Origin: Burkholderiaceae bacterium
GTDB lineage: Bacteria; Pseudomonadota; Gammaproteobacteria; Burkholderiales; Burkholderiaceae_E
DNA length: 64,000 nucleotides
Reading direction: 5' to 3'
Assembly (NCBI GenBank): GCA_023954015.1
Contig: JAMLIS010000003.1
Location: forward strand, 1-64,000
Part shown: positions 8,101 through 59,307 of the stretch, piece after piece
Layout of the letters: each line of letters opens with the position of its first letter
Numbering within the stretch: position 1 is the stretch's first letter
Notes under the pieces: generated by a model
What the model was told of the DNA's origin: nothing
Databases searched by the model: none
Seen by the model: only the letters and a program-made list of their open reading frames with translations
Position numbers and translations under genes: made by a program

Positions 8101-8840
8101 GCGATGCGGGCGATGCGGGCGATGCGGGCGTCGCGATGCGCATCGTCCGGATCGAAGACGTGCTGGGCCTGCCCGAAGATGCATTCGCGCCCGAACCCGG
8201 CGGCGAAGCGCGTACGAAGGTCGTGCTCCAGGTGCGCATGCCCGACGGCGAGTCGATCGGCATACGCGTGCCCGAGCCGGGACAGCCGCGCAACGTGGTG
8301 CTGCGCCCGCTCGCCTCGTTCGTCGGCGAGATTCCCGGCTTCGAAGGAGCGACGGTGCTCGGCGACGGTGCGGTGGCGCCGGTCTACGACCTGCCGCGAC
8401 TGCTCGCCCAGCGCCGGGCCGGGCGCGCGGCGCCGGCGCTGCACGCGGCGCGGGCGGCGCTGCCCGTGTGCCTCGTCGTGGACGATTCGGTCAGCGTTCG
8501 CCGGATGATGGAGCAGTTCGTGCGCGATCTCGGCTACGAGCCGGACAGCGCCGGCGACGGTGTCGAGGCGCTCGAGCGCGTGCGCCGCCGCATTCCGTCG
8601 ATCGTGCTCGTCGACCTGGAGATGCCGCGCATGAACGGCGTCGAGTTCGTGCGGGCGCTGCGTGCACAGGAGGCGACGCGCGACGTGCCCGTCGTGATGA
8701 TCACGTCGCGCTCGTCGGAGAAGCACCGCGCGCTCGCGCACGACGCGGGGGTCGATGTCTTCCTCACCAAACCCTACACCGAGGACGCGCTTGCCTCGCA
8801 CATCACGGCGCTGCTGCAGTCGCGCGGCGCCCGGCGCTGA
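5109..8840 (+). CDS. pilL: PilL/ChpA-like hybrid CheA kinase
   Basis: A 1243-residue hybrid histidine kinase overlapping pilJ by ATGA. Residues 1-420 are Hpt-like helical segments without an obvious active His. A true Hpt follows with His432 in AHTLKGSAN. Then comes a Pro/Ala linker holding a 7-residue repeat (about 570-620), the dimerisation helices, and the HATPase with its N-box near Asn831 (LLRNAVDHG) and its G-box SDDGRGLDL. A CheW-like regulatory domain covers about 960-1110. A C-terminal receiver carries phosphoacceptor Asp1169 (VLVDLEMPRMNG) and a TKPY lysine. It should phosphorylate the PilG/PilH receivers encoded upstream. P. aeruginosa ChpA is roughly twice as long and has more Hpt domains. 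Confidence 0.9.
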   Translation: MNANADPAADPRLDALDAAAVGLLEPLIVGMPFETGAAQGAGGFASDATNDAGAQAAAAGDWRARLAQALDRLSLAALPLELAGLAQTATLLAEWLRTPRPDGEGAPADAAAGVLRDGETALELALAEGWVGDAIAFCSGELGSDESASLVGRLRDWPGIDAQLTPERASALAMRLRADAQRIAQATRASLPAQASASAAAAADPGPSPQPEARGGLPAPSAHDASLAIGSDELQMLAEAAEQLDEEFRDALAAGPDFESFARIGDAIERYASAIAYVGLVPVSDALFAWHRNLACLARETHRFGQAHRDLLARLPSLWAALFEAPSSDAAGAALAPLADAAWPVSVDPTTLDAARRAFASIVRVGTRRVSAPEAEPDDEAMSLEIPPDADREVVDNLLRELPALSAAFSAAIERARAGSREDLAQGQRIAHTLKGSANTVGVRAIASLTHRLEDLLQLLDGADGERLAPDLADVLSDAADCLAEMSEAVAGLGDPPARARDVHRSVGQWIVRLLQVSASGQYVQPAAPHEEGGAQGQTTLPPPDDAPMSAPPQAAFGHTDGAAAAREPVAAAPEPAAATPETAAATPETAAATPETAAATPETAAAAPETAAAAPEVGAVARGDDDERPHEPGAGAAAQEWLRVPASLIERLLAFANEASILLSQAQEQAVEVDRVRATLVGGTDQLQDLSSELERLVDLRGSMLSERRERDDFDPLELDEHSDLQMVSRRIAESGADGRLIEQQLGRNVAALRDSLSRLERLQVDLREAALQTRTVRVESMVPRWARTVRQAARMAMREATLRVQGEDVEVDAQLLQALVEPIGHLLRNAVDHGIEPPDERERLGKPRAGCVSLHFSRDGGDLLIECSDDGRGLDLPAIRSRAVALGLIAPDESPSDSALARLAFVQGFSTRERATQLSGRGIGLEVVERIAREHRGTVAIDTQRGVATRVRLRLPVRLAAMPVVVVRSATYVIGLSVRDVERIVSADAGVAADASDAGDAGDAGVAMRIVRIEDVLGLPEDAFAPEPGGEARTKVVLQVRMPDGESIGIRVPEPGQPRNVVLRPLASFVGEIPGFEGATVLGDGAVAPVYDLPRLLAQRRAGRAAPALHAARAALPVCLVVDDSVSVRRMMEQFVRDLGYEPDSAGDGVEALERVRRRIPSIVLVDLEMPRMNGVEFVRALRAQEATRDVPVVMITSRSSEKHRALAHDAGVDVFLTKPYTEDALASHITALLQSRGARR
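6817..6960 (+). repeat. 21-bp minisatellite inside pilL
   Basis: About seven tandem copies of a 21-bp unit lie here, at least four of them identical, encoding the heptad AATPETA in the interdomain linker. Because 21 is a multiple of 3, copy-number change would alter linker length without breaking the frame. Confidence 0.9.
8073..8134 (+). repeat. 9-bp tandem repeat inside pilL CheW-like domain
   Basis: Repeats of the type GATGCGGGC encode an Asp-Ala-Gly run (DAGDAGDAG) between 'ERIVSA' and 'MRIVRIEDV'. It is an in-frame insertion into a loop of the CheW-like domain. Confidence 0.75.
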
Positions 8841-11049: not shown

Positions 11050-11943
11050 ATGACCATCCTTCGAGCCGGCTTCGCTCGCGGCGAAGCCACCGCGGCGTTC
11101 CCGCGCCCGTCGTGGACCGCCGTCGCGGCGCTCCTCGTCCTGGCGGGTTGCGCCAGCCCGCATCCCGCACCGATCGTGCACCGTGCGCCGCCGACGCCGG
11201 TCGCCGCGGCGCCCGCCGTTCCCGCACCGCCCGTCGCCCCGCCGGATGCAGCTTCCGCTGCCGCCGGCGCAGCCGCCGCTGCAGCGGCGCCCGAGGCCGG
11301 CGTGCAGACGACGCCGATCGCGCGCGGACCGATCGAGACACGGCCGCTGCCCGGCGCTGCCGAGACTGCGGGCGCTGCCCCGGCGAACCTGCTGAAGACC
11401 GAACCGAAGGCGCTGAAGCAGCCGTATTCCGATGCGGCGCTCGCGCAGATGCGAGCGAACGCGCCCGCTGCTGCCGAGCCGATTCCGCCGGTGGCGAGCG
11501 CCGCGCCCAGTGCGGCTGCCGCGGCACGATCGGCCCCGCCCGATGTTCCGGCAGCACCCGCGGCAGGCGGTGCCGGCGCGAGCGAGTGGATCTGGCCCGC
11601 GTCGGGCCAGGTCGTCCAGGACTTCGCCCAACCGCGCAGCATGGGAATCGCGATCTCCGGCAAGCCCGGAGACCCGGTCGTCGCGGTCAACGACGGGCGC
11701 GTGATCTTCAGCGGCGCCGGTCCGCGCTCCTACGGCAACCTCGTCATCGTCAAGCACGGCGACGACACGCTTTCCGTCTACGCGCACAACCGCGCGCTGC
11801 TCGTGAAGGAAGGCCAGAGCGTCAAGCGCGGCCAGCGCATTGCCGAACTGGGCAGCTCGGGCACCGATTCGCCGAAGCTGCACTTCGAGATCCGCAAGGA
11901 CGGCCGGCCGATCGACCCGCGCAAGGTACTGCCCGCGCGCTGA
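11050..11943 (+). CDS. nlpD: NlpD-like LytM-domain lipoprotein without a LysM domain
   Basis: A 297-residue envelope lipoprotein. The signal sequence ends in the lipobox LAGC (Cys34). A Pro/Ala-rich stretch (35-170) follows where NlpD normally carries a LysM peptidoglycan-binding domain; I see no LysM. The segment KALKQPYSDAALAQM is typical of betaproteobacterial NlpD. The C-terminal LytM/M23 domain (about 180-297) keeps the fold but has lost the HxxxD and HxH metal ligands (SMGIAISG, LHFEIR). It therefore probably activates an amidase rather than cutting peptidoglycan. Position after surE-pcm supports nlpD. The usual next gene, rpoS, is missing. Confidence 0.88.
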   Translation: MTILRAGFARGEATAAFPRPSWTAVAALLVLAGCASPHPAPIVHRAPPTPVAAAPAVPAPPVAPPDAASAAAGAAAAAAAPEAGVQTTPIARGPIETRPLPGAAETAGAAPANLLKTEPKALKQPYSDAALAQMRANAPAAAEPIPPVASAAPSAAAAARSAPPDVPAAPAAGGAGASEWIWPASGQVVQDFAQPRSMGIAISGKPGDPVVAVNDGRVIFSGAGPRSYGNLVIVKHGDDTLSVYAHNRALLVKEGQSVKRGQRIAELGSSGTDSPKLHFEIRKDGRPIDPRKVLPAR

Positions 11944-57718: not shown

Positions 57719-57720
57719 GA

Positions 57721-57753
57721 ACGACGAAGCCCGCGAGATGCGGGCTTCGTCGT
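57721..57753. terminator. Hairpin between the cation-efflux gene and tRNA-Asn
   Basis: A perfect 14-bp stem, ACGACGAAGCCCGC with its complement, and a 5-nt loop. It lies 2 nt after the efflux-gene stop and 7 nt from the tRNA-Asn 3' end, so it can end transcription from both sides. There is no long T-run; the minus-strand side has TTCTCATCGTT. Confidence 0.65.
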
Positions 57754-57760
57754 CGAATGG

Positions 57761-58074
57761 TGGCTCCCCGACCTGGGCTCGAACCAGGGACCTGCGGATT
57801 ACAAGTGCCCGAACGTTTCCGCTCGGCTTGGACTTTCTCTTCACCGTAGCGATCGATTCCGATCGCCTTAGGCGCACCCCGTAAAGTCTCTACACATGCC
57901 CGGAAGCGATTGCTCGCCGCCTGCTTGCTCGGGATTGCCTTAGCGGGTGCACGACATGCGTCGCGCGAACGCGCCTTAGGGTTCCCCGAATTGGGGGTGT
58001 TTTCACCGCACGGTTTCCCGCGCGGGCTGCCATGAGTTAACAGTCCGTCGCTCTACCGACTGAGCTATCGGGGA
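57761..58074 (-). tRNA. tRNA-Asn (anticodon GUU) interrupted by a group I intron
   Basis: Two exons on the minus strand, 58040-58074 (35 nt) and 57761-57801 (41 nt with encoded CCA), join into a 76-nt tRNA. The acceptor stem pairs TCCCCGA with TCGGGGA, and the D-arm is AGCTCAGTCGGTAGAGC. The anticodon arm after joining is ACGGA-CTGTTAA-TCCGC (anticodon GTT). The T-arm is CCTGG-TTCGAGC-CCAGG, with discriminator G. A 238-nt insert splits the anticodon between U35 and U36. Simple tRNA scanners may miss or mis-model this gene. Confidence 0.93.
57802..58039 (-). ncRNA. Group I self-splicing intron in tRNA-Asn (IC3-like)
   Basis: A 238-nt intron with no ORF. Exon 1 ends in CUGU, which pairs with internal guide GCAG to form P1 with the expected U-G wobble at the 5' splice site. 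The intron ends in G, as group I introns must. The R element GTGTAGAGACTTTACGG (57881-57898 region) and the S element AAGAGAAAGTCC (57829-57840 region) form P7. AATTCGGGGAACCCTAAG and GCGCCTAAGGC resemble segments of the Azoarcus tRNA-Ile intron. It should splice autocatalytically using guanosine. Confidence 0.9.
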
Positions 58075-58098: not shown

Positions 58099-59307
58099 CT
58101 AAGCCTTGATCACTCCGGCCATCGCCTTCGCCACGCCATCGATGTTTCCGCTGTTCAGCGCTGCCAGGCAGATGCGCCCGGTTCCCACGGCGTAGATTCC
58201 GAACTCTTCGCGCAGTCGGTCGACCTGCTGCGCGTTCAGTCCGGAGTAGGAGAACATTCCGCGCTGGCGTTCGACGAAGGAGAAGTCCTGGTCCACGCCG
58301 CTTGCGCGCAGTCGTTGCACGAGTCCGGTGCGCATCGCGCGGATGCGGTCGCGCATTCCGGCCAGCTCGCGCTCCCACAGCGCGCGCAACTCCGGCGTCG
58401 ACAGCACCGAGGCGACGATCGCCGCGCCGTGGGTAGGCGGGTTCGAATAGTTGGTGCGGATCACGCGCTTGACCTGGCTGGTGACGCGTGCGGTTTCGTC
58501 TCGATCGGCGGTGACGATCGACAGCGCGCCGACGCGCTCGCCGTACAGCGAGAACGATTTCGAAAACGAGCTGGAAACGAAGAAGGCCAGGCCGGAATCG
58601 GCGAAGCTGCGCACCGCCATCGCGTCGGCGTCGATGCCGTCGGCGAAGCCCTGGTACGCCATGTCGAGGAATGCGATCAGATCGCGCGAGCGAACGACTT
58701 CGACGACGTCGTTCCATTGCGCCGACGTCAGGTCGACGCCGGTGGGGTTGTGGCAGCAGGCGTGCAGGACGACGATCGAGTGCGCGGGAAGTCCGCGCAG
58801 CGCCCCGAGCATCGCGTCGAAACGCAGTCCGTGCGTGACCGCGTCGTAGTACGGATAGGCCTGCACGGCGAAACCGGCTGCCTCGAACAGCGCGCGGTGG
58901 TTCTCCCAGCTGGGGTCGCTGATCCAGACGCCCGCCTCGGGGAAGAGCCGGCGCAGGAAATCGGCTCCGACGCGCAGCGCGCCGGTGCCGCCCAGTGCTT
59001 CGAAGGTCGCCGCCCGCCCGGCGGCGATCAGCGGCGATTCGGCGCCGAACAGCAGCTTCTGCACCGCCTGGTTGTAGGCCCCGAAGCCTTCGATCGGCAG
59101 GTAGCCGCGCGCCGGGGCGGCGTCGACGCGCGCGCGCTCGGCGCGTCGCACGGCCTCGAGCAACGGAATCCGACCGCTGTCGTCGTAGTAGATGCCGACG
59201 CCCAGGTTCACCTTGTCGGTGCGCGGGTCGGCATGGAAGGCTTCGGTCAGGCCGAGGATAGGATCTCTCGGCGCCATTTCCACGGCGGAAAACATCGACG
59301 AAGTCAT
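58099..59307 (-). CDS. tyrB: Aromatic-amino-acid/aspartate aminotransferase
   Basis: A 402-residue class I PLP aminotransferase of the AspC/TyrB group. [20 protein letters not shown] is the family N-terminus and [14 protein letters not shown] the cofactor-binding Asn segment. The PLP lysine lies in [16 protein letters not shown]. The arginine of the TNYSNPP region and of [14 protein letters not shown] follows the family pattern. It may act on tyrosine, phenylalanine and aspartate. ATG 59307 is listed, and ATG 59295 is a close alternative. It is divergent from uvrB. Confidence 0.93.

Follow-up and report, generated by a model that had tools for sequence, protein, structure and literature searches.

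Bacterial tRNA genes described in the literature as hosts of group I introns comprise tRNA-Leu(UAA), tRNA-fMet, tRNA-Ile(CAU), the latter including cases in Acidovorax and Burkholderia (PMC8450103), tRNA-Arg(CCU) (PMC5733544), and tRNA-Arg(UCU) in Beggiatoa/Thiomargarita (PMC4853749). Phage introns known by 2014 were, according to a review, all located in protein-coding genes (PMC3984707). In the literature searched for this study, which lay outside subscription papers and specialised intron databases, no description of tRNA-Asn as a group I intron host was found; doubt on exactly this point had been raised in an earlier reading of the locus from its letters only (hereafter, the sequence-only reading), and it proved to be justified. 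The locus presented here very probably represents such a case, namely a small tRNA-type (IC3-like) group I ribozyme without an ORF, interrupting, after U35, the sole tRNA-Asn(GUU) gene detected in the genome. While the kind of ribozyme is known, the tRNA-Asn host, the 35/36 position, the recurrence of introns at this site, and the occurrences in phages are new. The asparagine tRNA and position 35/36 are thereby added to the short list of ribozyme-interrupted bacterial tRNAs.

Structure of the Split tRNA-Asn(GUU) Gene

The tRNA-Asn(GUU) gene occupies positions 57761–58074 on the minus strand of the window, i.e., the whole 64,000-nt stretch of Burkholderiaceae DNA analyzed, and is interrupted between U35 and U36, inside the anticodon. 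All features described below are located on the same strand. Exon 1 (58040–58074; positions 1–35 of the tRNA) ends with C32-U33-G34-U35 and showed 100% identity with positions 1–38 of the intact tRNA of a congener. Exon 2 (57761–57801) extends from U36 through the encoded CCA and was likewise 100% identical to the intact congener tRNA. The 238-nt intron between them (57802–58039) contains no long ORF of its own. The spliced exons match the intact tRNA-Asn of congener G001 at 76 out of 76 positions, yielding a standard cloverleaf with a GUU anticodon, and the coordinates at which the sequence-only reading had joined the two halves were exact.

The exon–intron boundary was set by means of four homologues (L063, L066, L078, and L048), in which an identical CUGU is followed by an intron starting with C or TG; together with the terminal G of the intron, these starts place the end of exon 1 at U35 and the beginning of exon 2 at U36. 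The terminal (omega) G, at 57802, was found in all 17 aligned homologues, preceding UAAUCC. Upstream of the tRNA and outside the intron, an ORF encoding an aminotransferase-like protein was identified (58099–59307), and the tail of the same gene lies 5′ of the intact tRNA-Asn in three congeners (G001–G003). Directly downstream of the tRNA, a perfect hairpin (GACGAAGCCCGC ... GCGGGCTTCGTC) was observed at window positions 57720–57756, resembling a terminator stem, although no clear run of T is present in the strand of the tRNA. A scan for promoters and terminators revealed nothing useful.

Using the Rfam covariance model RF00028 with an opened threshold, the interval was matched over model positions 1–253 of 253, with 45.6 bits and an E-value of 1.3e-10. 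This score falls short of the gathering score, set at 50, which is a curation cut-off and not a biological feature; for comparison, the best congener reached 49.9 bits, and the intron of a phage tRNA-Asn (L115) scored 53.0 bits, above the cut-off. Since the score of the window intron falls under the gathering score, it is missed by a default Rfam scan, which reported only a tRNA-Leu over the window, the same one that was the sole result of ARAGORN. The split tRNA-Asn was overlooked by both of these standard tools, and genomes of this kind consequently appear to be devoid of tRNA-Asn.

Conservation of the Ribozyme Fold

For the covariation analysis, 17 different split tRNA-Asn genes were aligned, and the group I structure (P1–P9, including the P3/P7 pseudoknot) was imposed on the alignment. 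Standard pairs were found in 93.8% of the cells over 48 pairs, and compensating double changes were detected in 19 out of these 48 pairs, compared to a mean of 8.3 in shuffled alignments. Cells changed on both sides amounted to 55 vs. 13.6 in the shuffles, with none of the 500 shuffles being as high. As a control, the pairing partner was slid by 1–3 bases, which left pairing in only 31–49% of the cells. Furthermore, RNAalifold recovered P2, P3, P4, P5, P6, P8, and P9 when the structure was not supplied. On this comparative evidence, chance is excluded as the origin of the fold, and selection is indicated to act on the structure of the ribozyme.

The P2 hairpin (58006–58025), featuring a GAAA loop, showed double changes in six of its eight pairs. 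The 5′ strand of P3 (57994–57999) pairs with its 3′ strand GGGGUG (57880–57875), with 93% of the cells paired and double changes in four of six pairs. P4 (57990–57985 with 57933–57928), belonging to the P4–P5 domain (57928–57990), and P7, formed by the 5′ strand GACUUU (57883–57888) and the 3′ strand AAAGUC (57836–57831), had 98% and 99% of their cells paired, respectively, and also exhibited double changes, a single one in the case of P7; the 3′ strands of both P3 and P7 were placed by the covariation alignment. The P9 hairpin (57809–57826) carries a further GAAA loop and three pairs with double changes. The GAAA loops of P2 and P9 are kept across the alignment, P9 being shortened in L063. 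P8 (57844–57872) harbors the receptor-like motif CCUAAG...UACGG, identified by eye, the outer CC/GG pairs of which were 97% paired; this motif and a second one, CCUAAG...CUAAGG, are, as judged by eye, close to and not identical with the 11-nt motif. The fold is that of a standard small tRNA-type ribozyme, and its P2/P9 GAAA loops and P5/P8 receptor-like motifs seem, by eye, to resemble subgroup IC3.

P1 (58027–58043) is formed by the exon sequence CUGU (58043–58040) and the internal guide GCAG (58030–58027), setting a U35·G wobble at the 5′ splice site that is present in 17 out of 17 homologues. All four pairs of P1 are invariant in these homologues and hence uninformative for covariation; support comes from the guide changing with the host tRNA, as GCAG faces CUGU in tRNA-Asn and GUGA faces UCAU in tRNA-Ile(CAU). 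The elements named in the sequence-only reading, i.e., a 238-nt group I intron, P1 with its U·G pair, both P7 strands, and the terminal G, were all found in place, and the comparison with RF00028 that it had proposed returned the full-length match given above.

A Single tRNA-Asn Gene Detected in the Genome

The genome comprises 3.46 Mb on 28 contigs and is 95.9% complete. A BLAST search of this genome with the spliced tRNA returned the two halves and short chance matches only, so that a second, intron-less tRNA-Asn(GUU), for which the sequence-only reading had advised to search, was not found. RF00005 yielded 42 tRNA matches in the genome, to all of which anticodons were assigned by ARAGORN, except for one weak match (L061, 32.1 bits); asparagine was the only standard amino acid without a tRNA among the assigned matches. 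The split gene was also the only one seen in the congener G008, the genome of which is more complete (98%). ‘Asn-like’ matches of 86–87% in congeners turned out, among those inspected, to be tRNA-Lys(UUU) and a CAU tRNA. A second tRNA-Asn may possibly reside in the unassembled part of the draft. Since no other tRNA-Asn was found in the genome, splicing must be needed for asparagine decoding, in agreement with the earlier claim that the position between U35 and U36 makes it a prerequisite for the anticodon. The split gene is the only known source of asparagine decoding in this cell.

Another group I intron was observed in the 23S rRNA gene of the same genome (L001 1501–2222; contig C28:132627–133348, minus strand; RF00028, 66.2 bits), holding a LAGLIDADG_1 reading frame (Pfam, E 1.4e-22).

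Distribution and History of the Intron

Within 18 genomes of the genus, tRNA-Asn was found to be split in 12, intact in three, and was not found in the remaining three; in this search, the two forms were never seen together in one genome. The split gene is carried by several named public records, among them Zeimonas arvi CC-CFT501, an isolate of the order Burkholderiales, Lautropia sp. SCN 69-89 and 70-15, and several Burkholderiaceae bins. The search pattern behind these records demanded the terminal G, whereas the search of the 18 genomes did not. A record labelled Gallionellaceae (L071), which may be misbinned, carries an intron nearly like that of a Burkholderiaceae bin. Outside the genus, the intron was detected in the tRNA-Asn of another genus of the family, represented by G073/L108, where the upstream DNA is unrelated, and the gene is split at the same site in the further betaproteobacteria L063 and L123, the latter representing another family. 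Looking for the same insertion in related genomes had been recommended in the sequence-only reading. Across the order and class, the core pattern of the window intron matched only congeners and L112. The archaeal sequence L068, picked up in the pattern scan, matched only by chance, through a short intron of the archaeal type, and was left out.

The 1.24 kb upstream of the tRNA aligned in 15 out of 15 congeners with a readable gene, and the aminotransferase tail was present wherever the reading frame was shown. The intact and split alleles are thus orthologous, and the gene is cleanly intact at the same locus in G001–G003. For the pairs G008/G007 (with G016 close by), G009/G005, and window/G017, the trees of the intron and of the flanking gene were in agreement; on the latter, the intact state requires three or more changes, even if only well-supported branches are counted. 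These results are most simply read as vertical inheritance together with the host locus within the genus and some three clean losses, gains being possible as well.

The introns of L063 and L123 grouped with those of tRNA-Ile(CAU) (support 100/99), and one clade for all bacterial Asn introns was rejected by the AU test (p-AU 0.0133), the p-value being moderate and the tree containing long branches. This grouping and the rejection of a single clade imply that the site was filled at least twice, and, at the moderate p-value obtained, at least two intron lineages are indicated to occupy the exact 35/36 site of tRNA-Asn.

Occurrence in Viral Sequences

Pattern scans revealed tRNA-Asn genes interrupted at exactly the base at which the gene of the window is split in the viral contigs L115 (7600–7880, minus strand), L116 (4630–5600), and L148 (580–850), and a further contig, L147, contains exon 1 and the intron (near 8839) up to the end of the available stretch. 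Many other tRNA genes are present in L115 and L148. The intron of L116 encloses a 203-aa LAGLIDADG_2 ORF (Pfam, E 1.5e-23); a homing endonuclease gene is absent from the window intron, which, with 238 nt, is too short. Group I introns were also found to split tRNA-Lys(UUU) after U35 in the viral contigs L113/L119 and L117, the intron of L117 measuring 657 nt with a long reading frame within. L148 also contains another match to a group I intron, at 11152–11348 (56.6 bits). Regarding isolated phages, unannotated split tRNAs were detected in Klebsiella phage Muenster (tRNA-Ile(CAU); L150 900–1210) and Agrobacterium phage Atu_ph07 (tRNA-Leu(UAA); L151 819–1178), both apparently interrupted by group I introns. 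The viral matches L114, L118, L120, L121, and L149 were, by eye, not group I introns in tRNA-Asn and were left out.

The window intron itself had no match among isolated phages or plasmids, and none of the phage introns included in the tree was a close relative of its type. Phages with a split tRNA-Asn may plausibly serve as carriers of introns. It is conceivable, if rather doubtful, that the CUGU|U anticodon of tRNA-Asn is a recurrent homing site: phage-borne introns, some of them equipped with a LAGLIDADG gene, would enter the single bacterial tRNA-Asn, lose the endonuclease, become fixed, be passed on vertically, and sometimes exit cleanly.

Proposed Splicing Mechanism and Alternative Explanations

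Following folding of the pre-tRNA, the guide GCAG would pair with the exon CUGU and set the U35·G pair at the 5′ splice site, which would then be attacked by a guanosine bound in P7. The freed U35 end would subsequently attack after the terminal G and be joined to U36, restoring the GUU anticodon. The gene structure, the conserved fold, the guide–exon match, the occurrence as a single copy, and the presence of an uninterrupted allele at this locus in relatives were established by the analysis, and both steps of self-splicing are predicted; in the cell, splicing is presumably efficient enough to supply all of the Asn-tRNA.

Dependence of splicing on a host protein, e.g., a tRNA synthetase or an RNA chaperone, instead of the RNA alone is known for some organellar group I introns (PMC3984707). 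However, the window intron is small and GC-rich, and its hairpins and GAAA loops match those of the tRNA-Ile intron of Azoarcus, an analogy that makes such help appear rather unlikely in this case. The Azoarcus intron splices unaided in vitro.

The sequence-only reading had proposed that the intron could act as a checkpoint on asparagine decoding. Under such a scheme, the rate of splicing, via GTP, Mg2+, or temperature, would tune the supply of Asn-tRNA and hence translation. All asparagine decoding requires splicing, no other tRNA-Asn having been found, and group I splicing requires guanosine and Mg2+, both of which fit such a role. The clean absence of the intron from the same locus in three congeners, its state having changed three times or more on the flanking-gene tree, nevertheless shows it to be dispensable and weighs mildly against regulation. 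Introns of this kind also reside in unrelated tRNAs (Ile, Leu, Thr, and Arg), which argues for a site preference and not for an asparagine-specific role. Nothing was found in support of the checkpoint, which is considered quite improbable.

It is hardly credible that the locus represents a broken tRNA pseudogene and that Asn codons are decoded by another tRNA-Asn, hidden in the 4% of the genome missing from the assembly. Although the incomplete assembly (95.9%, 28 contigs) leaves room for such a gene, the exons are unchanged, selection on the fold is evident across 17 homologues, and only the split gene occurs in 12 out of 12 intron-bearing congeners. An assembly artefact or chimera, as might be suspected in a draft assembly, is already refuted: 11 further congeners, the cultured isolate Zeimonas arvi among them, were assembled independently and show the gene interrupted in the same way.

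Beyond the ribozyme-interrupted tRNA-Asn(GUU) gene of the window, the recurrent insertion at one site, the three clean intact alleles of congeners, and the phage genes split at the same base constitute a natural experiment on the gain, movement, and loss of tRNA introns. With Zeimonas arvi being available as a cultured isolate, the system is testable.

Comparison with Known Systems

The window intron resembles the intron in the pre-tRNA-Ile(CAU) of Azoarcus BH72 (IC3) and its betaproteobacterial relatives in size, order of P1–P9, and the GAAA loops of P2 and P9, and it further shares with them the position in the anticodon loop, the lack of an ORF, and, as judged by eye, receptor-like motifs in P5 and P8. 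Host and site differ, as the introns of the Azoarcus type are spliced after U36 of tRNA-Ile(CAU) with a guide to UCAU, whereas the window intron is spliced after U35 of tRNA-Asn with GCAG directed to CUGU; moreover, introns of the window type formed a clade separate from the tRNA-Ile introns in the tree. Host tRNAs were identified by eye, ARAGORN being far too permissive on in-silico spliced candidates. In L145, a group I intron apparently interrupts tRNA-Ile(CAU) ahead of the anticodon, its site falling between U33 and C34.

The nearest non-Asn relatives in the tree were the tRNA-Thr(UGU) introns L112, L127, and L129 from other Gammaproteobacteria/Burkholderiales, and the exons of both types end with UGU. 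Unlike the window intron, they are spliced after U36, and kinship between the two is tentative, given the long branch of L112. We know of no description of tRNA-Thr(UGU) as a group I intron host. The Agrobacterium-type tRNA-Arg(CCU) and cyanobacterial tRNA-fMet introns also reside in anticodon loops of bacterial tRNAs, in these cases of other hosts, and some of the fMet introns carry endonuclease genes, in contrast to the window intron. The IC3-type intron of tRNA-Leu likewise interrupts the anticodon itself, being located after U34, whereas the intron of the window is located after U35 of tRNA-Asn.
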